Assembly: GCF_000003605.2 (NCBI RefSeq)
Contig: NW_003151253.1
Span: forward strand, 1,082,598-1,116,440
From: Saccoglossus kowalevskii
Taxonomy: Eukaryota > Hemichordata > Enteropneusta > Harrimaniidae
Direction: 5' to 3'
DNA length: 33,843 bases
The position numbers and the translations under genes were made by a program. This document shows positions 8,316 to 33,814 of this stretch, piece by piece. The notes beneath the pieces are model-generated. The model was not told the DNA's origin and searched no databases. It saw only the letters and a list, made by a program, of their open reading frames with translations. The stretch's first letter is position 1. Every line of letters begins with the position of its first letter.

Positions 8316-10095
8316 ATATGCTATTGACACCCTATTACTGTGATGTGGTTGACTAACAAACATTTCCAATTTTCACACCACAAAATCTATTGCTTTCACT
8401 CCAAATGTTAAGCCATTATTTTATTTTCAAATTGTAGACACATAAAAACTCATTATTATGCAAGCTGGTGGTACATTACTGTCTATTTCATCTTAATGGA
8501 TTATATATTAGTTGACTAGATAAACCTCTGAATGGCAATATATTCTGTTTCGCCAATAGTGTGGTTGCCCCCGAGCACTTTGCTACCACTTGCTGTCACT
8601 CAGATGTTCATTACTATAATAACGTTTTTTTCTCTATTTGAAGTGCTAATTATCGTAGTTCAGGCCGGGGCATGTCATACTTACTGACGTAGTTATTGAT
8701 TATTTTTTTTTACGTGTGCGTGTGTAAAAATTTATTTAATTGTTAACACGCCATTGACATTGACTATACCGTTATTGTTTATGATGTCTGTATAAATTTG
8801 TTAAATGGTCATACAATCGAAGCGAGGTCCTCTCTTTTTCGCCGTCGCTATGTTTATCAGTAAGCTGTGTGTTTTTCTTCTTCTTTTTTTCTATAACGGT
8901 CCACAATGTTTTCTGTGTGTATGCAAATACGGTTGATGCTTTTGTTAAGAGGTATTCATGTACCAAACTGTTTAGCTAACTGTGTCCTGGTATTCAATGC
9001 CTCTCTAGCGTCTCTGTTTGGCTCTGGCTTCACTCAAATCTACTGGTCTTTATCAATAGAAGATTTTTACAACAAAGGCCTTTGTGTCGTTGCCCTGCAT
9101 GTTTAGGCACACTCGGGTGGAGCTATTCTCTGTGTCCTTTGTCATGCATGGTAATTCTATTGAAACGTGGTAACAATGGGCCCCAACCTTTCCAGCTAAG
9201 CACAAAAGTCGGTGTCAAGTCAAGCAAGCAGACACACAGACGCACTGTAAAGTGTGGTTTCTAACCCCAATTCTGTTTCTGTCAGTCTGTCGTTGATGAA
9301 GGATCCTCATTCTAGTCTAATCTGTGAAAGTTTCTTGTATTAATGGCAGGTATGTGGTCGTGGCACAGTGTGCCTCGTTAGAATTAATTCTTCCTGTATT
9401 GCCATCCATCATATTTACTCGTTACATTTGTGACGGCGTTTGACTTATTTCTAACACGCATAGTGTATATCCTAAAGGAAAATGACTTTCTCTGTGGTAC
9501 CCAGCAGTGATCTTGAGGGGGTGTAAAAAGTTTCAGTTTGTGCAAACATGCAATCGTGCATTGATACCCTCGGTACCGTCACCTTTTAATACCATTGTAA
9601 CAAAATGACACGCTTCTCAGGCTTATTTCAAACTACTGCTGTTTCTCGTTACCTCGCTGTGACAGAATCATATGTCATACACTGGTGAAATATGCTTCGT
9701 AAAATACAGTGCATATGTCAAAACCATACAGCTTCCCTAAAGAGAAAAATAAAGGGTTGTTTATCATTGACATGCATCACAGAAGCTGATGATGTAAATG
9801 GCTAACCTGGTATCAATATAAAAAAAATTATTGTTATATTCATGAAAATCTAAACAACACAAATATCTCTGCTCATTTTATGGTATTTTGTATGTTGACA
9901 TCATCTGAGAAATCAGCTTTGAACTATAACAGAGATATTTAAAGCGAGTGTGTGAATATATGCCCATCGAGTAAACATTAGAAGTTTGCCTTTTAGTCAT
10001 TTAATCATGCATGGTAAACAAAATCAGTTAATAATGTTTGTTTGGCTGCCAAAATCACACGATTAATCAAGTCTGCTGAGCTGCATAGATATGCA
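8316..10095. other. Non-coding stretch, nothing recognised
   Basis: Unique AT-rich sequence with two short overlapping plus-strand open frames (8906-9106, 9082-9264) that show no domain or family signal. I see no exon, RNA gene or mobile element here. Confidence 0.45.
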
Positions 10096-10171: not shown

Positions 10172-13100
10172 TACCCACACTTATTTGGATTATCTGCATT
10201 TATATCTTCAGTAAACCAATATCCCAATTCTTTTCCACTGTCAACTTAACTATGTATTGTTATCTACCAAGGTAATGTCCATTGCTGCCAAGTGGTTACT
10301 ACATAGTTGGCCTTTGTGTCCAAATCTTCCTATTCACACATCTGAAAATGACATCCCATTCATGGTACTCCTCCTTTTAAAGTTGTGGTTTAGTCAATTC
10401 AAATAGACTGAAAACATCAAATTTCTTCTTCTATTTTTGTTTAAATTTTAAACAGTTAGTAGTATATGGTTGATATATAGTAGGTCTGTACTCAGTCGTG
10501 CAGAGCCCCGTTTAAAATCACAGCTGCAATTTGTTTTACAAAATTGCTCTATTCATTAAAATAATTCATATTATTTTGTTTCTGAATGATAATTAGTGCC
10601 ATGTTTGGTGAAGCACAGTTGGTTTGACGAATTCATTCACTGTTTAATTTTTAGGGGTATAAAACAGCTAAGATTATCACCATGGTGATGAATAAAACAG
10701 ATCTAATTTACACCTACATAGCATCGCTGCATTACTTTCTTTCAGACAATACTGTTGAGCGGAACGCTGATTGCAGGAAATTAGATTTTGTTTCCCTCCC
10801 TCAGATATGGAATTGCTGAAAGGAATAGTTTTGATGAACGGCTTGAGTAGAACAACATATTCACTCACAAAAAATTCACAAAGTTTGCATTTCAATTTGA
10901 CAAAGATCTGTGCGATTTTTTTTTTGCTGAATCTGTATTATATGCAAATAGAAATACAATTGAAAAGATATGCCAGTATAGAAAGAAAATTAATTTGATC
11001 ACTTTAATTTTTATTTAAAGTCAACTTTTTGATGCGAGTTGGAGGGATAAAAATTTGTGACCATGAAATTATCAATTGTCTTATTTTAAAGCAGGGAGTT
11101 ACAGTGTTATTTGGTCAATTTTAACCATTTTTGTGAATGCTCACATACACATTTTTGATAACAGTATACGGTACACTATTTTCAATAATTCAGTGAAAAT
11201 GCATTTCATGGTTGGAATTAAGAGTGATTGACTACAGTGATTGATATTCTTGTACAGAATCCTCTTGATTAAAAGTGCATTTAAACGCAAAATTGTGTGT
11301 ATTTTAAGTATACTGGATTTGAAATATGAATTTTTTGAACCATAGAATAATACTTTGGTCATTTATGTAAGTACATGAACAACTGATAAAACTAATACAT
11401 AATGTGGCCTCCAAGTCAAACATTGCCAACAATATAACAACAACAAAAGCCAGTTCTACTTGAGAACAATGTCACTTTCACCAGTGAACATAAAATCAGA
11501 CATTTTTCAGCTCAGACAGTCTGTTTCTAAAATTGTTAAATTTTGTTCTCGTAACTTCGTACTGTGTTAAATTGCTCTGGCATTAGTTGCCGGATAAAGG
11601 CTGGCCGGCAACACCAGGAGGACGAGGAGGGCTGGCACCAACAGAAAGGGTTCTCAGTCATTCCCTATCAGGCAGTTTCCACTAACAAATTAGATGGTCT
11701 CCTATTATAACTGAGCAGCAATACAATTGATTGTAATGTGGTTTTTTTTTTTTTATCTCATCTTCACCTTTTAATTAGTCCCCAGGACGTTAATTTGATT
11801 CATTTCATGCAATGGAAGTCTTTGTCATCTGATGATGTAATCAATCATCCCTTTGTTAAGCAAATTAGGTCATATGCTTCGTAGTTCAAACATGGAGAAA
11901 TCCATCATGTTATTATGTAATTACATAAAGTACTCTATTGTCACTTGGAATTTATTTTCGCTGAAGGGACGAAAGGGATGAATCAGTGAAAATAAAATCC
12001 TGTGGAAATGCTTTTTTTGCTAAATTTTAAAATCAACTCATCAAAGATCAGTGAAAATTAATTAAAATCAATTTGCTTCGTCATTTTCACAGTGAGAGGA
12101 GGGGGTACTGATTCGAAAAATTTAGAACTTCATTTTTTCCTTGAGAAATGTAAAATATAAAAATGCAAATGAGTATTTTTTTCTTTAAAGACTTCATTTA
12201 AAAACTGCTTAGTTGTTTTGCCAATTCACAGGCACAGTTAAAAGTCATATTTTTGGCGTTGCCTCTAAGCGTTGGCTCTCCTTAGATGAAAGCATAATCT
12301 TAATTCCTGTACTTTAGATCTAGTCCCAGACTTGCTTTGTTAAAGCAACTGGTTTTGACAAGGTCACTTTATGGCAGTCTAATTCAGTTATGTGATGGCA
12401 TTTTAATTACAAATACATGCTTCACGTCCAACTAATATAAATGATTACTACTGCCTGGTTATTTGTTGTTCACTTTGTGAAGTTTGCATATTTTTTTGAT
12501 TCGTGTAGCTCATTCACAGCACGATGTAGTTGTACCAGATCCTGGCAAGTTAATAAAGTTAATTTTTTATCAACCAATTTCGGAATGCTTAAAGAGATGG
12601 GCTTGTTTTACCATCGATATCTAGCTATTGTCGTTTTGATTAACCAGGTTTCCTCTCATGTTCAGTTTTTGAACTAATAACTTTTGTTATGAATTTGCTT
12701 AAATAACTGTCCAAATATTGTGGCTGTAGAGTAGTATGGTATGGTTCAAACACCAAAGACAACATTTGCACCATTTACAAAATAAATCAAGATCAAGCCT
12801 CGGAAAAATGTTGTCCAAAAATTTACTACCAGTATGACAAACATTCCCTGGATTGAAATAAGTGAAAACAACAATAAAATCTGCTTATGAAATGTGTATG
12901 TAAATTAAGTGCCTCAGTTTGCATCACCGCCAGACCTCATCTGAATCTGCGCATAGTTGTGTGTTAAATTCTTAAAACATGAATCTATAGCCTCCTCTTC
13001 CAAAATCATTTCCATCTGTACAATCTCTCACTCCCACACACACACACCCACAAAGTATTCGTCATGATTATGAGATTTTACTAAAGATAGAAATAATCCA

Positions 13101-13283
13101 ACAAAAGATCATTGTTTAGCTCTAGAAACGAATCGGATGCAAACAACATGTACAGACAACAAAAATGTTTTCAACCCCAACTGCATAACTTCTTTGTGTA
13201 TTTTCCAAATCATGTTTATGCAAATTTGTTATTTGTATCTATATCTACGCTATTCTTACCGCTTATTTTCTTTTTATTCGTAG
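10172..13283. other. Non-coding stretch, probable 5' intron of the ADAR gene
   Basis: The stretch ends in a splice acceptor at 13282-13283, so at least its distal part should be intron. No upstream coding exon of ADAR was recognised. A GC-richer patch at about 11580-11660 contains an 8-bp perfect inverted repeat (gttgccgg 11586-11593, ccggcaac 11605-11612). The open frames (10771-10998, 12441-12677 and others) show no family signal. Confidence 0.45.
13251..13283 (+). other. Splice acceptor of the ADAR coding exon
   Basis: A pyrimidine-rich tract ending ttttattcgtag precedes the exon. Upstream of it the frame stays open to an ATG at 13112, but that extension encodes a hydrophobic Leu/Phe-rich stretch that is simply the translated pyrimidine tract. 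ADAR2 proteins have no membrane segment at this position, so the extension is taken as intron. The exon begins in phase 1, with the AT of an Asp codon. Confidence 0.8.
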
Positions 13284-15361
13284 ATCAGAATGGAAGTGAG
13301 GCTGCTGGTGAAGTAAAGGAGAACATCAGTGGAGACCAAGAAGAAAATATCGCCATGGACAACGATGATCAGCCCACAAAAGAATCAGAGCAGCGTAACC
13401 TGAAACGTCCACTTGAAGATGAACAGAATAATCGTAATCTGAACGAGACTCCCCGACAGCGGCCACGCAAGAGGAAAAAGGTTCCGGGACCAGTGTTACC
13501 GAAAAATGCATTGATGCAGCTGAATGAGATTCGACCAGGTTTACAGTTTAAGTTTGTTTCGCAGAGTGGTCCGGTTCACGCGCCAACGTTTGTAATGTCG
13601 GTGGAGGTTAATGGTCAGATGTTTGAAGGTATCGGAACAACTAAAAAGAAAGCCAAATTGCAGGCTGCCGAGAAGGCATTGCGGTCATTCGTCCAGTTTC
13701 CCAATGCGTCAGAAGCCCATCGTGCAATGGGACGCCATATCATTACGTCTGATTTTACCTCAGACGCGATGGACCTCAGCGATGTGTGTCTATTTAATAC
13801 ATTTGAATCATCGCAAATGGCTGCCGGAAAAGAAATTGAAATGAGCATAACCGAACAGCCAATGGAAGAAAAAGTTCAAACTCATAACGGTACTCATCAA
13901 GAAATACCGCCCGCTGCTCTAAGTACCGGTCCCACACTACGGACACCACTATCATCACCCCCGCAAGGAAAGAACCCAATAATGCTATTAAATGAACTCA
14001 GACCAGGACTTAAGTACGAATTTGTGTCGGAGACCGGCGAGAGTCACGCAAAGAATTTTGTAATGTCAGTTGTCATTGACGGACAAAATTTCACTGGCTC
14101 TGCCAGAAATAAGAAAATGGCCAAAGCACGTGCTGCTCAGGCAGCTCTTTCCAAGATTTATAATTTGATGCCAGCCACTGCTCCTGGTCTTCAGCCAATT
14201 CCAAGTGATAACACGCAACTACAGACACCGCAAGTGCTCGCTGATCTTGTGCATAAGCTAGTACTGACTAAATTTGGAGAGTTAACGGATAATTTTACAT
14301 CTCCATATGCAAGGAGGAAAGTTCTTGCGGGTGTTGTCATGACACATGGTCCCGAGATGAATGATGCGAAAGTAATATGTGTATCGACCGGTACAAAATG
14401 CATCAATGGAGAGTACATGTCAGATCAGGGTCTGGCGTTAAATGACTGTCATGCTGAAATAGTCACACGACGATCGTTAGTGCATTATTTGTATACTCAG
14501 CTTGAGTTGCATTTAACAAACGAAGGTGACAAGTCGATATTTCAACCATGTGATGACGGACATGGATACAAGCTACGTGAAGATGTCCTGTTTCATCTTT
14601 ACATCAGTACCTCACCATGTGGTGATGCCAGGATTTTCTCTCCTCATGAGACAACTAGTGAAGGTGACTCTACTGATCGGCACCCGAATCGCAAAGCACG
14701 TGGACAATTACGTACTAAGATAGAATCCGGTGAAGGAACAATTCCTGTGAAACCAGACTCTTCGATTCAGACGTGGGATGGGGTCCTTCAGGGAGAACGC
14801 TTGCTGACCATGTCATGCAGTGATAAAATTGCTCGGTGGAACGTACTTGGAATACAAGGTGCTCTTCTCAGTAATTTTATTGAGCCTGTTTACCTGTCTG
14901 GAATCATCCTTGGATCGTTGTACCATTCTGATCATCTATCAAGAGCGGTTTACTGTCGTTCAGCTGAAATCGAAGACCTCCCGAGGTTATTTAGACTCAA
15001 TAAACCTCTGCTTTGTGGGATCAGCAACACAGAAAGTCGACAACCCGGAAAAGCCCCCAACTTCAGTATTAACTGGATGGTGACGGATGATGGAATGGAG
15101 ATAATCAATGCGATGACAGGAAAAGACGACCATGGTCGTGCTTCCAGAATATCTAAACATGCCTTGTACCAGCATTTTAAGCAGCTGTATGGAAAAATAT
15201 CCACCCTGACGCAAGAAACCCGGAAGCCGCAATGTTATAGCGAGGCTAAAGCTATGGCTGTGGATTACCAAGAAGCCAAGATACAAATGGTGAAGACATT
15301 TCAAAAAGCAGGATTAGGCACATGGGTAAAAAAGCCAATCGAGCAAGACCAATTTGTGTAA
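13284..15361 (+). CDS. ADARB1/ADARB2-like: ADAR2-type double-stranded RNA adenosine deaminase (single large exon, 5' partial)
   Basis: The family converts adenosine to inosine in double-stranded RNA in the nucleus. Residue numbers count from the in-frame ATG at 13112; the exon itself starts at residue 58. A basic patch RQRPRKRKK (115-123) resembles a nuclear localisation signal. dsRNA-binding domain 1 spans about 130-197 with KKKAK at 178-182. Domain 2 spans about 287-352 with [10 protein letters not shown] at 333-342. The deaminase domain runs from about 375 to 745. It holds the HAE motif (447-449), PCG (502-504) and SCSDK (568-572), which supply the zinc ligands His447, Cys503 and Cys569 and the proton-shuttling Glu449. 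Glu541 corresponds to the base-flipping Glu488 of human ADAR2. Lys572, Arg575, Trp576 and Trp738 match inositol-hexakisphosphate pocket positions. All key residues are present, so an active enzyme is likely. The protein ends EQDQFV, close to vertebrate ADAR2. The true N-terminus is probably in an unseen upstream exon, although ATG 13355 (residue 82) sits in a good gccATGg context and could start a shorter form. The missing introns across the deaminase are unusual. Confidence 0.95.
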
Positions 15362-17648: not shown

Positions 17649-18829
17649 CATTAAGACTACTGATACATAAGAATTTGAATTAATTAATGGAAACAAAAAT
17701 TGGCTTTACAAGTTTTTTTTAATAACAAATTTGTTGGTGCCCATGTTTTAGTAAGACATCTTCCATTCTCTAAAAGAGCACAATGTTTTTTTCTTGTTTT
17801 TACTTTAAGAATTTAGATTTTTGCTTGTACTAGATGTTATATTGTGTCATGTATTTTTCTGATCTGTTCAAATCCAAAGATATTTTATATAATTCTATGG
17901 GGGCATTTCAAAACCAAAAGAAGTTGGGTATTTTGTTGGAATTTTAATCTTATGCCAATAATTAATGAATAGAAACTAATTTGTTCAATCTTTGTTTGTA
18001 TTTTGTTTTCTCCAATCATTTTATTTATAATTTATAAAAGACAGCTTATGGGTTTTCAGTTACCATAAATTAATGCATTTGGGGTGTCTTAATGTCAAAT
18101 TGACTCCCTAACTTGGTGGATAAATTCAAGATGGCTCCATTTGCACAGTTGCGATCCAACATTTTCGTTTCCTAGCTGGTCATGTGACAACACTTGCTTA
18201 AAACATGTGTGGTAAACAATGTCATGGTTCATAGTTTTGTCTTGAACCATGGCATTTATGCAGTTAGCTGTTAGTCAGTTAGCTAGGGGATTCAAATCAG
18301 AGCCCCCTAACACATGCATTAAACTATGGCATCAGGTTTTAATATTCAAAAAGCAAATGGTAGTGTCTTATTGTGTTCAAACAACATACATGAATCCACA
18401 TTTTACAAGGCTATATTAACTGCACAGTTCTGACAATGAACAATCAGTCCTCTATTTTCAAATTATAGCTGTAGTCTCCAGCAATTTTCGTTATTTTAGT
18501 TTTTGTCAAATGTATTTTTTTTACAAAACAAAGTGATTGCTTATTAGTGAAAGTTTAAAATGTATATTTCTTAGTGTCTTTTTCTATATAAAAAACATTA
18601 TTCACTGTTTAATTCTGTATAATTTGGCTCAGTGCAGAGAGAAATTTGTAAGAAATGAACTGATGTTACTATTTCATAATTACTGTAATGTTATGGAATT
18701 AGTTGCTATAGCGATGATCTAGTCATGCTTATCTTTGCATATTAAATGTGGTGACGATTTCATAATGTCTTGTCTCTTTCATTAGTTTGAATCTTGTTGC
18801 CTTATGTTCGTATTTGCCAACCAAGCCTT
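17649..18829. other. Intergenic AT-rich stretch, nothing recognised
   Basis: Unique sequence with short open frames only (for example 18537-18722) and no family signal. Confidence 0.45.
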
Positions 18830-20251
18830 GTAGAATGCCTTGTAACATGTATATGCCAAGATATGAATATGTAGAATGCCCTGTAACATGTATATACCAA
18901 GATATGAATATGTAGAATGCCCTGTAACATGTATATGCCAAGATGTGAATGTGTAGAATACTCTGTAACATGCATATGCCAAGATATGAATATGTAGAAT
19001 GCCCTGTAACGTGTATATCCCAAGATGTGAATGTGTAGAATGCCCTGTAACATGTATATGCCAAGATGTGAATGTGTAGAATGCTCTCTACATGCATATG
19101 CCAAGATATGAATATGTAGAATGCCCTGTAACATGTATATGCCAAGATGTGAATGTGTAGAATGCTCTGTAACATGCATATGCCAAGATGTGAATGTGTA
19201 GAATGCCCTGTAACATGTATATCCCAAGATGTGAATGTGTAGAATGCCCTGTAACATGTATATCCCAAGATATGAATATGTAGAATGCCCTGTAACATGT
19301 ATATCCCAAGATGTGAATGTGTAGAATGCCCTGTAACATGTATATGCCAAGATGTGAATGTGTAGAATGCTCTGTAACATGCATATGCCAAGATGTGAAT
19401 GTGTAGAATGCCCTGTAACATGTATATCCCAAGATATGAATATGTAGAATGCCCTGTAACATGCATATGCCAAGATGTGAATGTGTAGAATGCCCTGTAA
19501 TATGTATATCCCAAGATATGAATATGTCGAATGCCCTGTAACATGCATATGCCAAGATATGAATATGTAGAATGCCCTGTAACATGCATATGCCAAGATA
19601 TGAATATGTAGAATGCCCTGTAACATGCATATGCCAAGATATGAATATGTAGAATGCCCTGTAACATGCATATGCCAAGATATGAATATGTAGAATGCCC
19701 TGTAACATGTATATGCCAAGATGTGAATGTGTAGAATGCTCTCTACATGCATATGCCAAGATATGAATATGTAGAATGCCCTGTAACATGTATATGCCAA
19801 GATGTGAATGTGTAGAATGCCCTGTAACATGTATATCCCAAGATATGAATATGTAGAATGCCCTGTAACATGTATATCCCAAGATGTGAATGTGTAGAAT
19901 GCCCTGTAACATGTATATGCCAAGATGTGAATGTGTAGAATGCTCTGTAACATGCATATGCCAAGATGTGAATGTGTAGAATGCTCTGTAACATGCATAT
20001 GCCAAGATGTGAATGTGTAGAATGCCCTGTAACATGTATATGCCAAGATGTGAATGTGTAGAATGCTCTGTAATATGCATATGCCAAGATGTGAATGTGT
20101 AGAATGCCCTGTAACATGTATATCCCAAGATATGAATATGTAGAATGCCCTGTAACATGTATATGCCAAGATGTGAATGTGTAGAATGCCCTGTAACATG
20201 TATATGCCAAGATGTGAATGTGTAGAATGCTTATAAAATGTATATGCCAAG
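18830..20251. repeat. 41-bp minisatellite, about 35 copies
   Basis: gtagaatgcc recurs every 41 bp (for example 18871 and 18912). The unit reads approximately gtagaatgccctgtaacatg, tatatgccaagatatgaata, t. Copies fall into a few variants: gatAtgaatAt or gatGtgaatGt, catgTatat or catgCatat, and tatGcc or tatCcc. Two copies (near 19081 and 19740) share the same one-base deletion. The minus strand has no stop in any frame, so three overlapping open frames of 482, 356 and 312 codons arise (18802-20250, 19088-20158, 18729-19667). They encode only the repeat (for example HSTYSYLGICMLQ) and are not called as genes. Confidence 0.97.
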
Positions 20252-22258
20252 TTGTATGTTATGTCTAGTCACTACTTAATTTTGGCTCATTCAATAAAAA
20301 ATACAAATAGCATCACTATCTAATTGTTGTACTGCACGGTACCTCAATTTAGTGTAATGGCCGTACACTCTATCTGATTGCATGCATAATTACTTTGTAT
20401 ATTTATATATATATACACTCTTGGCACCTGGAAATCAGATCATTACCAGAGTGGATATTTGTATCTAGTTTTTCCCTTGTGCTACTAACATTAGTTTCAA
20501 TAACTCTTCAGCACTTTCCTTGGGAAGATATTTGTGGAGCCCTCTATGGCCAGACATTATGTTGAACCAAGCCTGCCATAGAGGGCGTCATGTAGAAAAC
20601 TAATGCCTGTTTGCAAACAATGATACGAATATCAATAACACATTGTTATAGTTACCACTTTAGTATTCACTATTCCTGTGAGTAACTTTATATTAACCAA
20701 AATAAACATCGAGAACAAATGACAAGTTTGGCATTTTCTCAGTAGTGATTAAATCTTGTACACTGCAAATACAAAAAAATATTCCAGGAGATTATATATT
20801 GATTAATACCAAATATGATGGTTTTAACAAAGAATAAAAAGTGTCACCTGTCAGTAATATGGGGTTGAACTTATCAAGACTTTGATACACATAAAACAAA
20901 AGATAAGTGTGTGACATAACTGAACTATAGAGGGCGAGATAAGTATACTGTCCATTGCAAAGCTGTATTTACACCCACTCTACAGGATATATTTTTTTCT
21001 GCAAATTATTCAATTTGATTTCATTACCTTTGAAGTGCCATAATATTGGTGGAAAAATGTGCCTATTTATATGCATTTTGAACCAAATTGTTGAGAAAAT
21101 CTTAAAAAATTCTGTAGATTTTCTTTTGTGAATAATAACACAAGTTGACTTTGATGCTAAAAACATATCACTATCTCAAGACTTTGTCTTGTTGCATTAA
21201 TTACAGTAAACTGTTAAATTTTCGGCAATAGAAATGTTTCGTAGTTTTGTCATAGCATTTACAAGTCGTTGTGACCATAGCCTGTTTACCTACATATGGT
21301 TGTGTGGGTCCTTTCCCCAACAGTCTAGAATTGTTGCTTAGACTTTTCTTGACAATTCATATTTATTCCAACGTCTCTGTGAACTATCGGTTTGATACAC
21401 TATGTAGGGGAAATGTACAACTGTCATCCAGTGCTAGGAAAATTAGCATATTCAAATTAGCAGCTATATTTATCAGCCAATCAACATCATGGATAATCAA
21501 CTGACATTGAACGAAAAATTTAGGTACCAATTCCAGTTATGGAGAAGTTGTATGAAACAGTAGGCGAGTAATCAGGCTAGTATGACCTCAGTCTTCAGGA
21601 CTCAAGTTAAGTTTCACTGCCACAGATTTTTGTCTCTCGATTGTTCGGTACGAGTTATGAAAATTCCTGATTAAAGTGTGACATAAAGGCTCCATGCAAA
21701 GTACACAAATGCGTTTCACATGAAATTTAAAAATGAAGCACAGCGATTGTGAACGCTGTCATATTGTTTGTACCATGGCCATCTTGAATTGGCCATTCTA
21801 GAATTTTCAGGGTTATATTGTGTAATCAAATTACAGAAACCGGACATTAAGCTATGCATATTCACATCAGCATTTTGATTGGTCAAAACCAAATTGTAAA
21901 AGTCATGTTCATGCAGCAAGGTGTCGAGCATTAGAAACCGGGGGAAATGAAATCAGTGTCGGCAGAACATTTGTTCTTGAATGCCCCAACATATTCTCCC
22001 TGCAACACCTTGCATGAATATTTTTTCTAAAATCAATGTTTATCAACACAAATTTCGCACATGCGTGGCGCGATGACTACCGCCCTTTACTAGTAACCCT
22101 TTACATGTGCGAGCAGAGTGGCCATTGGAGGAGATTCATTCAAATGAGACAAATATTGTCAGTATCTGGGCATGCAATTTTATTTGCATATTTACCTGAC
22201 ATTACAAATACATCCAAGTTACATCATTAATTTATACCAAAATAACAATGAATGATCA
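20252..22258. other. Intergenic stretch with a small inverted repeat
   Basis: No exon is recognised. The notable structure is a perfect 12-bp inverted pair GCCCTCTATGGC (20539-20550) and GCCATAGAGGGC (20575-20586). A further tatagagggcgag word lies near 20926-20938. These resemble the TAGAGGGC cores of the arrays in the WDR37 introns. Confidence 0.45.
20539..20586. repeat. Perfect 12-bp inverted repeat with TAGAGGGC-type arms
   Basis: GCCCTCTATGGC at 20539-20550 is the exact reverse complement of 20575-20586, with a 24-base spacer. It can form a stem-loop, or read as two oppositely oriented CCATAGAGGGC boxes. Confidence 0.7.
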
Positions 22259-23831: not shown

Positions 23832-24227
23832 AATACTAAAACTTATAACTAGTAAAATATCTTCTCAAGGGCTTTGTTTAGGCAATCTACTTTTATGTGA
23901 ATCGCAATAAGTTGCCAAAAATAATTTATATTTAATTATAATTCACAATTTTAAGATGTCTATCATTGTCCACACTGTACCACGTCCAAGGAAGACCCAC
24001 AATTCCTTGGTGCAATTCCAAGGATTGAGAATACTAAAACTTATAACTAGTAAAATATCTTCTCAAGGGCTTTGTTTAGGCAATCTACTTTTATGTGAAT
24101 CGCAATAAGTTGCCAAAAATAATTTATATTTAATTATAATTCACAATTTTAAGATATCTATCATTGTCCACACTGTACCACGTCCAAGGAAGACCCACAA
24201 TTCCTTGGTGCAATCCCAAGGATTGAG
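23832..24227. repeat. 198-bp tandem duplication, two copies
   Basis: 23832-24029 and 24030-24227 align at a constant offset of 198 bp. I count two differences: gatGtc versus gatAtc, and gcaatTcc versus gcaatCcc. At about 99% identity it is either recent or an assembly artefact. Confidence 0.95.
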
Positions 24228-24884
24228 AAATAGTCCTATGCATAATTTTAATATGTTAATTGTTAGTTATTTCCTCCACTAATTTATCAACAAGAAATTA
24301 TAAAGAGTCACACATATGGCTGTAGTTAATAATATTTTAACAGTTCAACTAAACTTTGATAATATTTTCTAGTAAATTAAAGTCATATTTACACAAGAAT
24401 AGAATTTCACAATTTTCTATTCAAAATATTTGTCCCTACAAAAAATTCTACTTGGGGAGCAACTCAGAAAATAAAACATATTTTTGCATAACCACAGAGA
24501 CACTCTTTCTATGCCATTACGAACTTATCTAAACAGAAATGTTATTCATTAATAATTTAATTTTGATTTTTCACTAAGGGATGACCAGCAGCAACTCGTG
24601 GGGTTAAATATAAAATAGAATTTAGCTCAACAATAAGTGAAGTAGAAGACAATTTTCAGTTATTCTACTGTTACCCTTCCAGAGCTTATAATATGCTTGG
24701 GTGGTTCGATGAGAGAAATTTTGTTTTTGTATACACATTTCAATAATTTCTTTGTTAATTTAGAATAAAGTACTCATAATTTTTTTTGTGGAAGAATAAG
24801 TAAAAATTGTTTTCAGTGGACCAAAACTAATTATAGAAAAAATACATAAATATGTACAAAACATGAATATCTTGTCACACGCTC

Positions 24885-25419: not shown

Positions 25420-25557
25420 TTAAGATTTGTCAATGGTACCAGTCGTCAATCCGTTAATCCTCCATCCCAGAACTTGTCGATCAAATCCACAGCTGAATAA
25501 ATTACAGTTACTTCCTTCATCTAGCCAGGTGGTACAACACACCATGCGACGATGGCC
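25420..25557 (-). CDS. WDR37: WDR37 terminal coding exon
   Basis: Last of seven minus-strand exons of the WD40-repeat protein WDR37. It starts after a ttctag acceptor with GHRRMVCC, includes LFSCGFDRQ and GWRIN, and stops at TAA (25422-25420). Human WDR37 ends with a very similar segment ([20 protein letters not shown]). The residues after GWRIN are divergent, as is usual for this tail. The 138 nt make 46 codons including the stop. WD40 repeats fold into a beta-propeller that acts as a protein-interaction platform. Human WDR37 associates with PACS1 and PACS2 and its variants cause a neurodevelopmental syndrome; whether that role holds in this organism is inference. Confidence 0.93.
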
Positions 25558-26720
25558 CTAGAAGAGCAAAGAGATGTGAAAACATTGTGCATAAATGAAA
25601 TGAATGAGAGAATATTTTTATCCAGGAAAATATATTTCCTGGAATGGAAGCCAATTATGGCCCAGTGCTACAGTACAGTAGGCTGAATGGGAGTAACTCA
25701 GATCTATGCAAGAATAGACGAGAGCTCTCCACAAGACAAGTGATACACTGGGCATCAAAATAAGTCTCCATAAAGGATCTGAACTATATTAAAAAATGGA
25801 CCAAAGCTATGCACCAGACCAGTGATAAACTGGGCCAACAAAGGGGACAAGCTCTCCACTAAAACACTGGTCGAATTCATTGAAAAATATTTATCTAAAT
25901 AACATCATTTTTCTAAAACATAAAAATAGGTAAGATTAAAGCAAAATAAAAGCTGGTACGTTGTGTTGTTATTATGGTTTACATAAAGGTGCAAGTGTCT
26001 GATCAAAAAAAAAGCCAGTTGTATCCATTGTTTACTTTTCTGCCGAGTGGTACTTAACAAAACCCTTTCTCTTTTATAGATACATTAACAGCATGCATAA
26101 GTAATTACTAAAGTAAACAATAAAACCAATTCACATTATATTATATACCACATGCTACCCATTAAAAAGATATTATATTCTGTAATATCAATAAAATACC
26201 TCATTCAATTGTTTGCTTAGCTAAGTGTGTTGATCGCTTGTAAAATACATTTTATGGTTTTTATAAATTTCTACTCATATTTTAAACATATGTTAGAAAA
26301 AAAATCATAAAAAATCAATTCATCGTATCAGATGAATTTCAAATTGAGTAAACTGAGAGCAAGTAATACCACAAGTAATTGTCACTCCCTGTTTAATAAA
26401 TTCAACCTGAGATTAGACATACCTGCAGGAGTGCCATTAAGGCCCATGTACACTGGTCTCAATTTAATACCAATCATCTGTGCTGTGTGTACTGCACTTT
26501 GGATTTGTTTGTTTTCAATTCAATTCAATTCAAAATCCTAAAAGTTCATTTAATTCAAATTTACTCTGGAAAACCACCAGAAATTTTGACTGCTACAATA
26601 TTTCACAATGATCAAATGTAAACAAAACAATCAACACTGCATATTCCGCCACATAGCAACCGAAAATCCATAACAATTATCAGGTTTGAATAAAAGTGAT
26701 TCGGACAACAAATAACTCAC
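25558..26720 (-). other. WDR37 intron (1,163 bp)
   Basis: Donor CAG|GTGAGT and acceptor CTAG|GGC on the minus strand. AT-rich, with no further exon or element recognised. A 69-codon plus-strand open frame (26332-26541) lies inside without family signal. Confidence 0.85.
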
Positions 26721-26835
26721 CTGTCGACTGCTTCTTGGTAATCTCGCCAGCCTGACGCCATTTAAATCAAATAATCGTATTTGTCTGTTGTCGTGGGGTA
26801 TAGCGATGACGTTATACTGCGGCGACACCGATAAT
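26721..26835 (-). CDS. WDR37: WDR37 exon (WD repeat, IPHDNRQ segment)
   Basis: 115-nt exon with acceptor TTGTAG|ATT and donor CAG|GTGAGT. It encodes [18 protein letters not shown] followed by [12 protein letters not shown], a signature segment nearly identical to human WDR37 ([23 protein letters not shown]). The first base completes an Arg codon split with the upstream exon, and the last codon is complete, so the reading frame joins both neighbours cleanly. This is the strongest single-exon evidence for the gene identity. Confidence 0.96.
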
Positions 26836-27271
26836 CTACAACAAATAATAAATTTAAGAAATATATGAAGTTATTAGTCGTAAATCAGAGCGAAAAGTGT
26901 AATGAGCTTTAGAATGCAACAGATGTCCCGTAAATCAGAAAAGATAAATATATAGTTTCCAAGCATGCATACTACTGTATTTAGACTATTAGAAGCACAA
27001 CTTTTCACCCCATATCGCTGTACTGTAAATGACTTTTTTTAGCTAAAATTAATTTTCACTGAAAAGACTTTTTTCGGTGTTTTCATAGTTTATTTTCACA
27101 GATTATTGATGAGTTAAATGTAAATGTAAGAAAAAAAAGGTATATTCACTTGATCTTATTTTTAGTGTATCATTCCTTCAGCGAAAAGAGTGCTAGTATT
27201 ACAATAACAATGTCATGAGCAACAATCAATTAACTTTACAAACAAGTGATATCACGTTATAAATTGCTCAC

Positions 27272-27406
27272 CTATTGACAGCGGAATCAACTCGGATAGT
27301 TGTGATTGGGGTTCTCATATTCTTCAAATCCCACACTTTAACAGTTCGATCATCAGAGCCACTCACAACATTATCGCCTGATGCAAAACAGGCTGATGTA
27401 ACCGCT
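27272..27406 (-). CDS. WDR37: WDR37 exon (WD repeat, [15 protein letters not shown])
   Basis: 135-nt exon with acceptor TTTGTAG|AGC and donor AATAG|GTGAGC. It encodes a complete WD signature, [17 protein letters not shown], then [13 protein letters not shown]. The first base completes a Glu codon begun in the upstream exon and the final AG starts an Arg codon finished downstream. Human WDR37 has the same [17 protein letters not shown] string. Confidence 0.96.
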
Positions 27407-27639
27407 CTACAAACAAACAAACAAATTACTCAGAATGAATATCCCAAAAACTAAAGAATTTCTCCATGGTGTGCAGAACGATTTCCAGATACAAAAAGTT
27501 TTTTTAAAAAATGTCAAAGTGTCAAAGTTAACCAAAAAATCACAGAAAAATACGTTAAAATGTGCAAAATGTAACATCAAAATGTTGGCAGGAAAATTTA
27601 AGATGTTCAAAATAAGAATCTGATCTATGTTATACTTAC

Positions 27640-27781
27640 TCACTGTGACCTTGGAATACATTTACTGAATGAATGTTTGGATCTCGGAAGTCCCAGAGTC
27701 TAAATGTTGTATCTGTTGATGACGTCACCACTAGTTTCTGTGTAGGATGTGTACAGCAATGTGTTAATTCTTGATCATGCC
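27640..27781 (-). CDS. WDR37: WDR37 exon (WD repeat, [12 protein letters not shown])
   Basis: 142-nt exon with acceptor TTTCAG|GGC and donor GTGA|GTAAGT. It encodes [40 protein letters not shown] and QGHSE. Other GT dinucleotides lie near the donor, but only GTGA|GTAAGT keeps the frame and joins to GHSE-AVTSA as in the family (human GHTD-TVTSA). Two flanking introns are short: 233 bp downstream and 1,095 bp upstream, the latter filled by a minisatellite. Confidence 0.96.
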
Positions 27782-28876
27782 CTGAAATCAAACAAGAAAA
27801 TAAATCAATGTGAATAACAAAAATAAATTTGCTTTATTAGAAGTGTTTGTGTATGTTAACATTTTGCTACCACTAGAGGACATGGCAGAGCACTGCATAC
27901 CACTAGAGGGCACTGTGTACCACTAGAGGGCACTAAAGAGCACTACGTACCACTAGAGGGCACTACAGAGCACTGTGTACCACTAGAGGGCACTAGAGAG
28001 CACTACGTACCACTAGGGGGCACTACAGAGCACTGTGTACCACTAGAGGGCACTACAGAGCACTGTGTACCACTAGAGGGCACTAGAGAGCACTGTGTAC
28101 CACTAGAGAGCACTACAGAGCACTGTGTACCACTAGAGGGCACTACAGAGCACTGTGTACCACTAGAGGGCACTAGAGAGCACTGTGTACCACTAGAGAG
28201 CACTACAGAGCACTGTGTACCACTATAGGGCACTAGAGGGCACTACGTACCACTAGGGGGCACTACAGAGCACTGTGTACCACTAGAGGCACTACAGAGC
28301 ACTGTGTACCACTAGAGGCACTAGAGAGCACTGTGTACCACTAGAGAGCACTACAGAGCACTGTGTACCACTAGAGGGCACTACAGAGCACTGCGTACCA
28401 ATAGAGGGTAGTAGAGGACACTACAGAGCACTGTGTACCACTAGAGGGCACTAAAGAGCACTATGTACCACTAGAGGGTACGAGAGGGCACTACAGAGCA
28501 CTGTGTACCACTAGAGGGTACAACAGAGCACTGTGTACCACTAGAGGGCACAACAGAGCACTACGTACCACTAGAGGGCACTACAGAGCACTGTGTACCA
28601 CTAGAGGGCACTAGAGAGCACTGTGTACCACTAGAGGGCACTACAGAGCATAGTGTACCACTAGAGGGCACTACAGAGCACTGTACGTGTACCACTAGAG
28701 GGCACTACAGAGCACTATGTACCACTAGAGGGCACCACAGAGCACTGTGTACCACTAGAGGGCACAACAGAGCACTGTGTACCACTAGAGGTTAAAGATC
28801 AAAGTGACTAAATAATAAAACAGAGCATGAGTACTGTGTATAAGCAGCTTGGTTGCCATGACATTCATTTACATAC
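27782..28876 (-). other. WDR37 intron (1,095 bp) mostly occupied by a 30-bp minisatellite
   Basis: Donor ACAG|GTATGT and acceptor TTTCAG|GGC. About 920 of the 1,095 bases are tandem repeat, listed separately. The array lies about 85 bp from each exon. Confidence 0.9.
27869..28791 (+). repeat. 30-bp minisatellite, about 31 copies, with a CTCF-like core in most units
   Basis: The unit is ccactagagggcactacaga followed by gcactgtgta, 30 bp. I count about 31 occurrences of the ccacta-type core, all in the same orientation. Around 18-20 of them fit the vertebrate CTCF core consensus CCASYAGRKGGCRSY at every position (CCACTAGAGGGCACT, CCACTAGGGGGCACT and similar). Variant copies include agagAg, tatAggg and one-base-deleted aggc forms. 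A minus-strand open frame at 28003-28233 is only translated repeat. Confidence 0.97.
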
Positions 28877-29056
28877 CTGTTAATGACTGTATAAGTTCAC
28901 ATGTTTCTACATCATACAGATTGGCTGTCCTATCCCATGATGCAGTCACAATCTGCCGTCCATCTGGCATCCAATCAGCAGATATTATGACACCGCTATG
29001 GCCTTCTAGTACGCACTGTGGTGTCCTTATATATGTCATATTATCATTCTCTGCTC
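28877..29056 (-). CDS. WDR37: WDR37 exon (WD repeat, TASWDRTANLYDVET)
   Basis: 180-nt exon with acceptor TTTTTCAG|GAG and donor ACAG|GTATGT, phase 1 at both ends. It encodes LEGHSGVIISADWMPDGRQI and VTASWDRTANLYDVETCELI before QSLTG. Human WDR37 contains TASWDRTANLYDVET and [13 protein letters not shown] across the same exon junction, and the residues here join in the same way. The exon contributes one full WD repeat after the acidic linker coded by the preceding exon. Confidence 0.96.
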
Positions 29057-29895
29057 CTGAAAAATTAAAATAAAGAACACAAATATTATCTATATCTGAA
29101 ACTAGCAACTGTAAAGTGATCTATTTCCTCCACTGTTTGAGATGCATTCTGGGAAAGCAATATGACTAACTACAGAAGGAATTGACATTGTTAACAGTGT
29201 GTGAAATTGAAAAATAAATATGACTGCTGCGAAATTGGCTGACAAACAAAATATGGCTGCCTTTATAAAGGTTACCATGACAACACAATACAGTATATCT
29301 GAAGAGGCTCAGCTACTTCTATACAATTGTTTTGAGTAATATAAATAAATTATAGAAAAAAAATCCAAAATTACATTATTTAATAAATTTTCGAAAATAT
29401 TAAAGCATGGTGACTAATTTGCATATCAATAGTGGTTATTTTGCACACATCCAAATTATTTGAATTTGCATACATGCATTAGCTATTTTGTGTATAAAAA
29501 GTAGATAACTTGTGTATAAATAGTGGCTAATTTGAACATGAATAGTGGCTAATTTGAACATTAATATATTCTTCTGACATAGGAAGTTTTTACAAATGTA
29601 ATTGTAAAGTTGCTTTTTTGTAATTTCATATATTTACCATTTTTACCTTTTCTGGGAGAAAGTTTTTAATATGAAATTATAAGCGTTTCAACTTCCATTG
29701 TTTATTGGAGAACACTGTAAAGATTATCATGAATGATTTACTAGTGGTACGCCATATTTGTTAGAAGTTCACATTAACAAAATTTTGTTTTTATTGTACA
29801 CCAGATCCTTAGATTATGACTTTCACCATAAAAGCATACATCAGTGTTTTCTATAAGAGCACACCATTATCTGCTGACACTTTCTCCCATTCAAT

Positions 29896-30129
29896 TTACC
29901 TATCCATAGAGGTTCCAGTAGGAGATGTGTAACACCAAATTCGAAAAATACATGTAGGTCCCCTCTCAGTGACCTTCCAATAACCCTTGTAACCAGTGAC
30001 AATGAGTCTCCCTAAAGTCACAATAGAAGCACTCGAAGCAGACAACGTTATATCACGGGTTCGGGTTATGGCGAGGACAGCTTCATCGATATTTACCAGT
30101 GCAAGGGAGGTGTATGACCAAACACACAT
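29896..30129 (-). other. Unidentified GC-richer segment with a 77-codon open frame
   Basis: Within the large WDR37 intron this block stands out from AT-rich surroundings and stays open on the minus strand for 77 codons. Its translation includes VLAITRTRDITLSASSASIV and GYKGYWKVTERGP, which I do not recognise. Candidates are a degraded dispersed repeat or SINE-like element, a cassette exon, or chance. No convincing splice acceptor was seen upstream of it. Confidence 0.3.
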
Positions 30130-30669
30130 GAAATAGTTTTTTTTACAAAAAAATGAATTAACACCAACAAAAATTTATACTGGCTAACAATTTACAGAAT
30201 GAATATTAGCTGGCCTAAGGCAGCAATAAGTACACAATAGTCTACTTAGTTAATTCAAAATAGAAAATACTAAGTGCTCAATCTAATTTCTCCTATCAGT
30301 AACAGCAATCCAATCAAAATTAACAACTTACCACTAAGTCAGTAAGTATAAAATTTAACACTCGCCCTTTAACAAATAGGCCAAACATTAGAACAGTTAA
30401 AGGGGTCTACGTGAGATGTTTAGTTTCTGTTTACAACATATCAATATACTGATTAAGATTACTCTATAATTCTATATATTCATTGGTCTCCATAAAAGGC
30501 AAGGATTGGTCTAAATCTATAAATTCAAATTTTTAACAGGGTAGGATATGGGAATTTAAATTTACATTAATGTACAGACCTTTGGTAAATACCCCTGGGT
30601 GAATATCTGGACAAAATATCTGACAATGTTTTATGGGTTTGTGTTTGATCAGAGATTGTATTCCTTTAT

Positions 30670-31772
30670 CATCAATTTCAATAAAATAAAAAACAGTACA
30701 AACAAAATTTCTCATAATCAGTCAGTCAGCATTATATTGCCATCACTAGAGGGCACTGTCCTCTTCTGTCATCAATTTCAATGAAAGACCAATACAAACA
30801 AGATTCCTCATAATTAGTAAGTCAGCACTGTATTACCACTAGAGGGCATAGAATATCAATAGAGGGCGCTGTCCTCTTCTGTCATCAATGAAAGACCAAT
30901 AAGATTGCTCCTAATCAGTAAGTCAGCACTGTATTACCACTAGAGGGCATAGAATATCAATAGAGGGCACTGTCCTCTTTCATCATCAATTTCAATAAAA
31001 GACCAGTACAAACTAGATTCCTCATAATCAGTAAGTCAGAACTTTATTACCACTAGAGGGCATAGAATATCAATAGAGGGCGCTGTCCTCTTCTGTCATC
31101 AATTTCAATGAAAGACCAATAAGATTGCTCCTAATCAGTAAGTCAGTACTGTATTACCACTAGAGGGCATAGAATATCAATAGAGGGCACTGTCCTCTTT
31201 CATCATCAATTTCAATAAAAGACCAGTACAAACTAGATTCCTCATAATCAGTAAGTCAGAACTTTATTACCACTAGAGGGCATAGAATATCAACAGAAGG
31301 TGTTGTCCTCTTCCACAGTCCCTCTATCACTCTTCCATCACTAATTTCAATGAAAGACCAGTACATACAAAATTTCTCATAATCAGTCCGTCAGCACTAT
31401 ATTACCACTAGAGGGCACATAATATCAATAGAGGGCACTGTTCTCTTCTGTCATCAATTTCAAGGAAAGACCAGTACAAACAAGATTGCTCATAATCAGT
31501 AAGTCAGCACTGTATGACCACTAGAGGGCATAGAATATCAACAGAAGGTGTTGTCCTCTTCCATCACTAATTTCAATGAAAGACCAGTACATACAAAATT
31601 TCTCATAATCAGTCCGTCAGCACTATATTACCACTAGAGGGCAGAGAATATCAATAGAGGGCGCTGTTCTCTTCTGTCATCAATTTCAAGGAAAGACCAG
31701 TACAAACAAGATTGCTCATAATTAGTAAGTCAGCACTGTATGACCACTAGAGGGCGGAGAATATCAACAGAA
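30670..31772 (+). repeat. Tandem array of roughly 110-bp units, about ten copies, each with paired TAGAGGGC cores
   Basis: accactagaggg-type words recur near 30741, 30835, 30936, 31047, 31156, 31267, 31404, 31516, 31629 and 31743, mostly 100-113 bp apart with one 137-bp unit. A typical unit reads caatttcaatgaaagaccag, tacaaacaagattcctcata, atcagtaagtcagcactgta, ttaccactagagggcataga, atatcaatagagggcgctgt, cctcttctgtcat. Segments around 30901-31017 and 31125-31240 are nearly identical, so pairs of units have also been duplicated together. Two TAGAGGGC cores lie 20 bp apart in most units. Confidence 0.93.
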
Positions 31773-32086
31773 GCCACTTCAGAACTTCTCTTTTAGTCTT
31801 CTAAATTAAGTTTTTGTATGCATGTTATTAAAAACTAAATAAAAATGCACGAATACTGAAAATTACAATCTGAACTCTGACCTATAACCTTTAACCTCCC
31901 CCACAACCATGCTATATTTATCATTTATAAAATAAAATCAAGGTTTCAACTGGACTTTGACTGACAAACAATTATATTCAGGTCTATTTGTGTAAGGCGA
32001 CAAAGTCGAGGATGGCAACCAATAATTAATAATAATAATTTTAAAAATCTTGTTTCAAAAACTAAGTTGTCAAATAAAACACTAAC

Positions 32087-32147
32087 CTGTTCCATCAACA
32101 TCTTCTTTATCAGAAGTGTCCAAGTCATCATCTCCTGACGACGGTCG
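32087..32147 (-). CDS. WDR37: WDR37 exon (acidic linker)
   Basis: 61-nt exon with acceptor ACCATAG|CGA and donor ACAG|GTTAGTG. It encodes RPSSGDDDLDTSDKEDVDGT, an acidic inter-repeat linker. Human WDR37 has an acidic Asp/Glu/Ser-rich insert at the same place, between its SGDQTAHIW and TASWDRTANLYDVET repeats. The residue sequence is only loosely conserved, so the call rests on position, splice sites and matching phases (0 in, 1 out). Confidence 0.88.
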
Positions 32148-32627
32148 CTATGGTAGAAATCAACAATGACATTTGTAAGTAAAATCTACAACAATTCACT
32201 CATGTGTTACTTGTTGTTATGCTATACACTAGCATGTTTCACATACTATTGACCTCCCACCAACAATAGATTAAAATTTGTAGTAACTTTGTACTGCCCA
32301 ATCAAAAGCCCTCAGCAGACACACCTGAAAAAATTTGTCGACAGTATTTTGAATATGGCATTTCACATTAAATGTTCTTTTTTATGAATGTAAGAGAATG
32401 GCATCATTGGAAACACACCGAAGAGTAGTGTAGCGACAGAGATTATTTAACACATAAAATATGATCTGGGGTAACCACACATTGACGACGCCCACTAAAC
32501 AACACATAAATAATATATACCATTTGAACAAAACCCATTAGATCTTGAGATACTATGTGCAAGTAACAGGACAACAAAGTTCCTAGAATATTTGCGACAA
32601 CCATCAATTACCAGCATCCGTACTTAC
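32148..32627 (-). other. WDR37 intron (480 bp)
   Basis: Donor CAT|GTAAGT and acceptor CATAG|CGA on the minus strand. No element recognised inside. Confidence 0.85.
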
Positions 32628-32698
32628 ATGGTCTTCAGGAACAGACTGAGGAATATTTACGAATGATCTCCAGACATGCGCTTCATGATCACCAGATG
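32628..32698 (-). CDS. WDR37: WDR37 exon (SGDHEAHVWR segment), most 5' exon in the window
   Basis: 71-nt exon with acceptor ATCACAG|CAT and donor CAT|GTAAGT. It encodes SGDHEAHVWRSFVNIPQSVP followed by EDH. Human WDR37 has SGDQTAHIWR with a similar proline-containing tail here. The exon starts with the last two bases of a split codon (expected Ala), so at least one coding exon lies upstream. The preceding WDR37 segments (coiled-coil N-terminus and first WD repeats) were not found between 32699 and 33843 and must lie beyond the right edge. Together the seven exons give about 280 codons, slightly over half of a roughly 490-residue family member. Confidence 0.92.
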
Positions 32699-33007
32699 CT
32701 GTGATATAATAATAAAAATTATTATTATTATTATTTAACATACATTATTATAGCACCGAAAATATTTGGATTTGCCATTCCGTAAAAAGCTGTATCAGCA
32801 CACGTTCCAAAACTTATCAGCACCCATTCAAGCATTCAGATTTTCCAAATATGGAGTAAACTACGTCATTTACGTGTTACAAATCATTAACGTCAAGTTC
32901 AAACACTCTTCTCTGTTAACATTTGATACAGAAGCGTTATAGCATACAATGAAAATAGAATCCTGTGACTGAGCCCAAACATTTTCACAGTGCAAAACGC
33001 AATTATA
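32699..33007 (-). other. WDR37 intron, right part, no exon seen
   Basis: AT-rich sequence with a short (att)n run at about 32712-32735. It ends at the TA target dinucleotide of the pogo-like element. Confidence 0.6.
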
Positions 33008-33147
33008 CAGTAAAACCTGTCAAAACCGACCATGACTGGGACCGGGATCTATGGTCGGTTTTCAGAGGGAGTCGGTTTATTCAGGGTGGGCGTAACTTCG
33101 ATTAAAACAACAATTACATGTGCTGTAAACATGGGACAAATGAAAGA

Positions 33148-33168
33148 CACCGGAGTTTGCCTCCGGTG
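33148..33168. repeat. Perfect hairpin in the transposon end
   Basis: caccggag (33148-33155) and ctccggtg (33161-33168) form a perfect 8-bp stem with loop tttgc. Confidence 0.8.
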
Positions 33169-33177
33169 ATTATGAGT

Positions 33178-33253
33178 GTAGGAAAAAAAAACCCTAGGAA
33201 AAAAAACCCTAGGAAAAAAACCCCTTAGGAAAAAAACCCCATAGTGAAAAAAA
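33178..33253. repeat. Short A-rich tandem repeat (about 14-bp unit, 4-5 copies)
   Basis: Units of the form taggaaaaaaaccc repeat with small length differences across 33178-33253, inside the pogo-like element. Confidence 0.85.
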
Positions 33254-33559
33254 ACACTTTTATTTATTTAAATGTATTTACATTTATTGTATTGTTTCAA
33301 TAAAATAATTTACCAAACAAGACAAGAATATTATGGTATGTACATGAAATCAATAAACATTAAAATAACTGTTGGAACAGACCGGGTAAGTATCGTGTAT
33401 CGTAACTGAAGGCGTCCATTTTGAATGAAATTACAACGTAAGTTCACGTGAGCTACCTGTAATTATCATAATTTATGCAGACAGTCGATTTTGCTGTTAA
33501 GTCAATGAATCAAATTACGATGTAAAAAAATCATCAAGTTTTGACTGCTTTAAAGAACA

Positions 33560-33814
33560 TCATTTTTCAACGATTTTGTTTTTTGTTGGAATTATGAAAT
33601 TTTGGATATCTGTCAAGTAACTGGAGTCTTTGTTTATTGTGAAGTTCTGTAATCTTGTCAACATGTCTAGCACATCGCCATGCATCAAGTCACTGTCGTC
33701 ATGGGGTTCAATAATTTGACTGTCATTGCAATTTGTGTCATCGTTGTCTGTAGATTCATGGTTTTCTTTGTCTACAATAAAATTCTCAACAATCTGTTGC
33801 TCCCACTCGCATAC
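33560..33814 (-). pseudogene. Decayed transposase C-terminal fragment (pogo-like), partial
   Basis: On the minus strand a frame is open for 84 codons and ends with TGA at 33562-33560. It encodes an acidic tail with WEQQIVENF, NDDTNCNDSQ, EPHDDSD and VLDMLTRLQNF. An acidic C-terminal tail of this type is usual in pogo/Tigger transposases, but no catalytic residues are in the window. Upstream the same frame meets TGA at 33817-33815, while the next frame continues open to the window edge, which suggests a frameshifted, inactive copy. The assignment leans mainly on the adjacent terminal repeat. Confidence 0.4.

Follow-up and report, generated by a model that had tools for sequence, protein, structure and literature searches.

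A minisatellite with repeated CTCF-type sites of one orientation in an intron of a WDR37-like gene of Saccoglossus kowalevskii

A tandem repeat in which the vertebrate CTCF core recurs many times, always in the same direction, might be a cluster of sites for a CTCF-like factor, a working insulator, or an ordinary minisatellite built around a frequent word. The locus that raises this question lies in a 33,843-nucleotide stretch of contig NW_003151253.1 of the hemichordate Saccoglossus kowalevskii, referred to from this point on as the window. The repeat, array A (27870..28791, + strand), comprises 31 tandem units in one orientation with a modal length of 30 bp and the consensus CCACTAGAGGGCACTACAGAGCACTGTGTA, its end at about 28791 being that of the last, partial copy as set by Tandem Repeats Finder, which reports a period of 30, 29.0 copies and 87% matches. 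Exactly 30 bp is the length of 24 of the 31 units, the others measuring 14 (the partial last copy), 20, 29, 29, 34, 40 and 40 bp, which bears out the initial annotation in its description of about 31 same-orientation units at a regular 30 bp. The consensus divides into three 10-bp sub-repeats (CACTAGAGGG, CACTACAGAG and CACTGTGTAC); units of 20 or 40 bp correspond to steps of 10. With several head-to-tail units in the size range of about 10-100 bp, array A, as known from one assembly, is a minisatellite (VNTR). A coding role for the long frames on its + strand was set aside, since a 30-bp period predicts such frames.

Array A occupies about 922 of the 1095 bp (~84%) of its intron (27782..28876, - strand), which has a GT donor at 28876 and is followed by the next exon from 27781. 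The preceding exon spans 28877..29058 (start approximate), and the following one 27639..27781 (end approximate). The host is a minus-strand gene encoding WD40 repeats, which we take to be WDR37 from the likeness of its exons; a PDB search returned general WD40 proteins among the best 60 of 668 matches. The intronic location claimed at the outset therefore stands, with the name WDR37 as a probable assignment. An ADAR2-like reading frame (13097..15361, + strand; ADAR2 structure match, E 3.3e-218) is mentioned for context, and the ADAR2-like (13097-15361) and WDR37-like (25423-33814) genes are adjacent and convergent. Human ADARB2 and WDR37 are neighbours too, on 10p15.3, and the two may form an ancient gene pair. 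Elsewhere in the window, a 41-bp unit, TGTAGAATGCCCTGTAACATGTATATGCCAAGATGTGAATG, is repeated in 35 copies at 18829-20255, with long open minus-strand frames and no CTCF-type site, and a 48-bp unit, a multiple of three, is repeated about 22 times at 7275-8325, with long frames on both strands of up to 237 aa. Two 198-bp copies at 23832-24229 are 99% identical and hence a recent duplication.

The repeated core fits the CTCF consensus both by exact matching and by matrix score. All 18 exact matches to CCASYAGRKGGCRSY in the window are on the + strand and within array A, in agreement with the 18-20 units previously credited with an exact core, and 100 dinucleotide shuffles gave 0 matches. For scoring we used a version of the vertebrate CTCF matrix MA0139.1. 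By this measure, array A has 33 + strand sites at p<1e-5, of which 20 score at least 20, and a single minus-strand match that passes p<1e-4 only. Among 1000 column-permuted matrices, none reached the best score and one reached the number of matches. The consensus unit was equalled by 0 of 5000 shuffled units, and by 1 of 300 in another run, so the weight-matrix scan that had been proposed as a check comes out above shuffled repeats. Outside array A and a second array described below, array B, the window holds eight matches at p<1e-4, about chance level. The human c-MYC CTCF probe, as given in PMC9474293, carries CCAGTAGAGGGCACA, which differs from the array A core at 2 of 15 bases, and a CTCF site of BLV is listed as TGGCCGCTAGAGGGCGCCG in PMC10236774. 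Selection on the core was not seen inside array A: across the 24 units of full 30-bp length, the core does not vary demonstrably less than the linker (changes at 14 of 360 versus 24 of 360 positions, p 0.13). Of the 14 changes in the core, 11 disrupt the consensus, and nothing suggests that every copy of array A is being kept functional.

A plainer alternative in the initial annotation was that the core is a common dispersed word of this genome, with no relevance to CTCF. To weigh it, counts were made across the 572-Mb assembly, which is partly N (56,066 of 170,000 sampled bases). The full 15-base consensus has 473 matches (256 on the + strand, 217 on the -) where composition predicts 13.3, an enrichment of about 36-fold; the reversed control has 9. 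Reversed controls contain CpG, for which observed/expected is 0.73 here, and they run somewhat low as a result, so that composition figures are preferred. For the consensus and for the CCAS form discussed below, the first 100 places each were listed and array counts cover those places; among the 100 for the consensus, 10 fall in a 33-bp array on contig C352 and the other 90 outside that array. The exact core CCACTAGAGGGCACT occurs 51 times (reversed control 0), of which 15 are in array A, 9 are in the C352 array, which is otherwise unrelated, and 27 are on 27 other contigs, one of these (on C1650) sitting in a 57-bp array. The flanks of 12 of the 27, read as 41-bp stretches with 13 bp on either side, are unrelated by eye apart from one base either side. 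These bases follow the matrix: all 12 sites have a purine at position 3, just ahead of the core, and 11 of 12 have one at position 19, just behind it. Within the word, TAGAGGGCRSY is preceded by CCAS in 239 matches and by CCAW in 59, and C/G is preferred over A/T at matrix position 7 by about 6.5-fold when composition is corrected for and visible arrays are removed.

The fit to the vertebrate matrix is nevertheless partial. Matrix position 2, where MA0139.1 prefers G, is G in just 1 of the 12 flanks read. The variant CCASCAGGKGGCRSY, with C at position 8 and G at position 11, has 7 matches (reversed control 2, expected 1.6), a scarcity that indicates a factor whose taste is unlike that of human CTCF, or else another protein. 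At motif position 11 it is A that this genome favours, which points to a local CTCF whose preference has shifted or to a related factor as the reader of the site. Also, CCAWTAGAGGGCRSY, the A/T variant at position 7, is itself enriched 16-fold, so part of the consensus excess belongs to a shorter word, TAGAGGGC, which ranked first among 535 8-mers of the same composition in the first sample, with 17 of its 20 copies there in one array. Even so, the 36-fold enrichment, together with matrix-like preferences at positions that the query had left free, disfavours an irrelevant word, and the genome-wide counts favour a CTCF-type site.

A search for the factor itself was uninformative. The human CTCF finger region found no CTCF fingers in the parts of the genome that were searched (best matches 36-44% identity), and neither did fingers 3-6 alone (top match 47%). 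YY1 fingers, expected to be near-identical across animals, served as the positive control and were likewise missed (top match 49%); the search was therefore blind, and absence of CTCF is not concluded. Another candidate binder, the sea-urchin-specific insulator protein, was set aside, as no sequence link was seen to what is described of it in PMC3784565.

Array B (30742..31778, + strand), which the initial annotation did not list within this finding, is made up of about nine units of 113 bp and lies in a different intron of the WDR37-like gene. Its sites read CCACTAGAGGGC on the + strand, and part of its units also contain TCAATAGAGGGC, 20 bp further on. At p<1e-4 it has 16 matrix matches on the + strand and 3 on the -; at p<1e-5 there are 13, all on the + strand, the three minus-strand ones being weaker. 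In both arrays, AGCACTGT lies upstream of the core, followed by GTA or CATA-like bases in array A and ATTA-like bases in array B, so that the registers are one base apart. The likeness of the two upstream flanks was equalled by 27 of 5000 shuffles (14 comparisons, uncorrected), as against at least 1109 of 5000 for the C352 array and the 12 single sites, and the likeness of the linkers was matched in 33 of 2000. Because of the common upstream flank, arrays A and B probably share one origin, and independent origins were rejected as the simplest view. One unit of array B, searched against the genome, returned 10 matches, every one at array B itself.

How readily could a minisatellite acquire such a word by accident? 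In 153,334 unmasked bases of sampled sequence there are 15 arrays with a period of 12-200 and no fewer than 3 copies, and 1 of the 15 includes TAGAGGGC. Short-spaced triples of TAGAGGGC give 990 matches (reversed control 0), as compared with 295 for a scrambled CpG-free word and 290 for its reverse; since the scrambled word forms many too, such totals mainly reflect a handful of large satellites. When distinct arrays are counted instead on the listed contigs up to C1253, the range reached by the first triple listing, there are 10 for TAGAGGGC (7 if a four-member family is counted once) versus 2 for the scrambled word, a mild excess in keeping with the word's own abundance, so that chance capture is enough. 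By a hand estimate from about 1 array per 10 kb and from CCASTAGAGGGCRSY sites that number no more than about 205 once visible arrays are left aside, about one captured site is expected and three or four are seen (array A, C352, C1650 and perhaps C2263), and the idea that CTCF sites are special seeds of arrays finds no support beyond chance. These figures, along with the lack of extra conservation in the array A core, are what an inert minisatellite would look like in a minisatellite-rich genome, with a frequent word inside it by chance and nothing of consequence bound. We consider that account possible but doubtful, as the captured word looks non-neutral, its 15-base consensus being enriched largely outside arrays in the places listed.

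Other arrays with the word take several forms. Regularly spaced CCASTAGAGGGCRSY is found at G000:C352:343253-344188 (33 bp) and G000:C1650:170716-171072 (57 bp), while G000:C2263:75299-75334 has a single pair at a distance of 21 bp. Sample L021, drawn without regard to the word, contains at 5165-5870 (G000:C4723) a 21-bp array of about 34 copies of TGTAATTATGGTAGAGGGCGC with 17 TAGAGGGC words and a poor score against the 5' half of the CTCF matrix. At G000:C1253:82-5669, 32-bp units of TAGAGGGCATCATAGGTGTTTATGTAACACAC form a satellite that takes up at least 5.6 kb among the places listed. A dispersed family of 28-bp arrays, containing ATTGAGTTGCCATAGAGGGCA / CCATAGAGGGC, recurs on C127, C254, C346 and C803; in CCATAGAGGGC the gap from CCA to TAG is one base shorter than in the CTCF core, and it may be a variant spacing or the site of some other factor.

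The recurrence of the 28-bp family on four contigs means that some copies of TAGAGGGC are dispersed repeats, and it gives some substance to the notion of a mobile element that spreads the word as a passenger. That notion appears quite unlikely for the word at large. Copies with common flanks, as expected of a dispersed transposable element, were seen neither in the 12 of 27 exact sites read, where likeness does not go past one base over 13 bp on each side, nor in the search with the array B unit, which has no copy elsewhere in the genome searched. The linkers of array A, C352 and L021 are also not alike, and the 28-bp family is a separate repeat.

On balance, we think it probable, if not by much, that array A is a minisatellite that captured a CTCF-type site, that arrays A and B derive from one ancestral segment, and that the word is read by a CTCF-like factor. 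A CTCF-type site and its flank, already present in the WDR37-like gene, would have been caught in a local tandem duplication. The ancestral segment would have been AGCACTGT, a few bases and ACCACTAGAGGGCA, and would have given rise to the 113-bp array in one intron and to the 30-bp array, with its three 10-bp sub-repeats, in another, where slippage and unequal exchange may have produced the roughly 31 same-orientation copies. Judging from the genome-wide motif statistics, a CTCF-like zinc-finger protein of this species would genuinely target the word, and the species' CTCF would favour CCASYAGAGGGC in vitro. On motif evidence, CTCF binding at array A is plausible. If bound, the array would serve as a homotypic cluster, its many overlapping chances of binding giving a high average occupancy. 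The footprint of CTCF is larger than the 30-bp spacing, so neighbouring units could hardly all be filled, which speaks for a higher mean occupancy rather than 31 loaded proteins. Any effect as a cohesin roadblock or in enhancer blocking would be modest at best, with a strength that varies with copy number.

A bolder extension, to which we give little credence, assumes a CTCF-like factor with a preference shifted to A at position 11 (YAGAGGGC), whose sites repeatedly nucleate tandem arrays (A, B, C352, C1650, possibly L021 and others). Binding, through replication or topological stress, would promote expansion, and the resulting length-variable homotypic clusters would be evolving rheostats of local chromatin contact.

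Array A might instead act in RNA, if the WDR37 pre-mRNA, which is antisense to the motif, formed a hairpin that acted on splicing or was a substrate for ADAR editing. The WDR37-sense RNA does fold well (z -6.2 versus dinucleotide shuffles), and a long, imperfect hairpin is seen at window 28540-28800 on the minus strand. A tandem repeat of the unit also folds better than all but 5 of 200 tandem shuffles (z -2.0; for the other strand all but 36 of 200, z -0.9), although the signal is weak once this tandem control is applied. An RNA role would leave the genome-wide enrichment of the DNA motif unexplained, and we regard it as very unlikely.

The CTCF-bound macrosatellite DXZ4 has one CTCF site per unit, in a single orientation, and the CTCF sites of protocadherin clusters are far more widely spaced and tied to promoters. 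Like DXZ4 (PMC3491370, PMC3218863), array A is a tandem array with CTCF sites, bound in the one case and predicted by motif in the other, but DXZ4 as presented there is mammalian and X-linked with 3-kb units, whereas array A is a minisatellite with 30-bp units and sits in a gene of an invertebrate. Protocadherin clusters (PMC7087399) resemble array A in their many tandem CTCF sites, with the difference that function has been shown for theirs in the work described. Similar in form are the VNTRs in the promoter and intron 2 of human SLC6A4, the serotonin transporter gene, which according to PMC2848977 are bound by CTCF; the intronic one, Stin2, is likewise a short-unit tandem repeat, with 9-12 copies and CTCF detected by ChIP. 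Those VNTRs have 16-17-bp units and measured binding, as against the 30-bp units and about 31 copies of array A, which are known from sequence. Side-by-side repetition of CTCF sites is also the design of the synthetic arrays pIHLME (n=0-21; PMC9474293) and STITCH (PMC7200164), which, unlike array A, are hand-made constructs whose insulation was assayed in human cells. In the pIHLME data given, same-orientation arrays of 0-21 copies of the c-MYC probe insulate more strongly as copy number rises, and 3 copies did not insulate.

Such precedents bear on the proposal that array A is a directional insulator or loop anchor at work between ADAR and the WDR37 promoter. The strong sites of array A and those of array B do point one way; in human cells, insulation is reported for synthetic CTCF arrays (PMC9474293, PMC7200164), and tandem CTCF sites insulate at the Pcdh and globin loci covered in PMC7087399. 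In the portions of the studies drawn on here, CTCF motifs are enriched at domain boundaries of echinoderms (PMC13317027) and a CCCTC-like motif at those of squid (PMC9023564), and CTCF-like motifs are detected at loop anchors of cephalopods (PMC12407938). However, tandem duplication alone yields a uniform orientation, for which selection is unneeded, and array A sits within a gene body. In the same echinoderm report, CTCF motifs are neither patterned in orientation nor enriched at loop anchors (PMC13317027), and in squid no motif directionality is identified in the account of PMC10658182. With a core no better conserved than its linker, near-chance capture of the word and, as far as these sources go, no orientation pattern in echinoderms or squid, the suggestion of an insulator, a loop anchor or a sink for CTCF is unsupported, and a working insulator seems rather unlikely.

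A literature search showed no invertebrate minisatellite with CTCF sites among the papers that it listed, which does not prove that there is none, and judged by its sequence array A would be a new invertebrate short-unit tandem repeat of CTCF type. If bound, as in the reading that we favour, it would be nature's equivalent of the synthetic same-orientation CTCF arrays with which insulation is studied, in an animal that is neither a vertebrate nor a fly. More important than the array itself are the genome-wide counts, which show strong enrichment of a vertebrate-like CTCF consensus, in the form AGAGGGC, in the genome of this species. Were the CTCF of this species to prefer AGAGGGC, that is CCACTAGAGGGCACT over CCAGCAGGGGGCGC, those counts would be explained.
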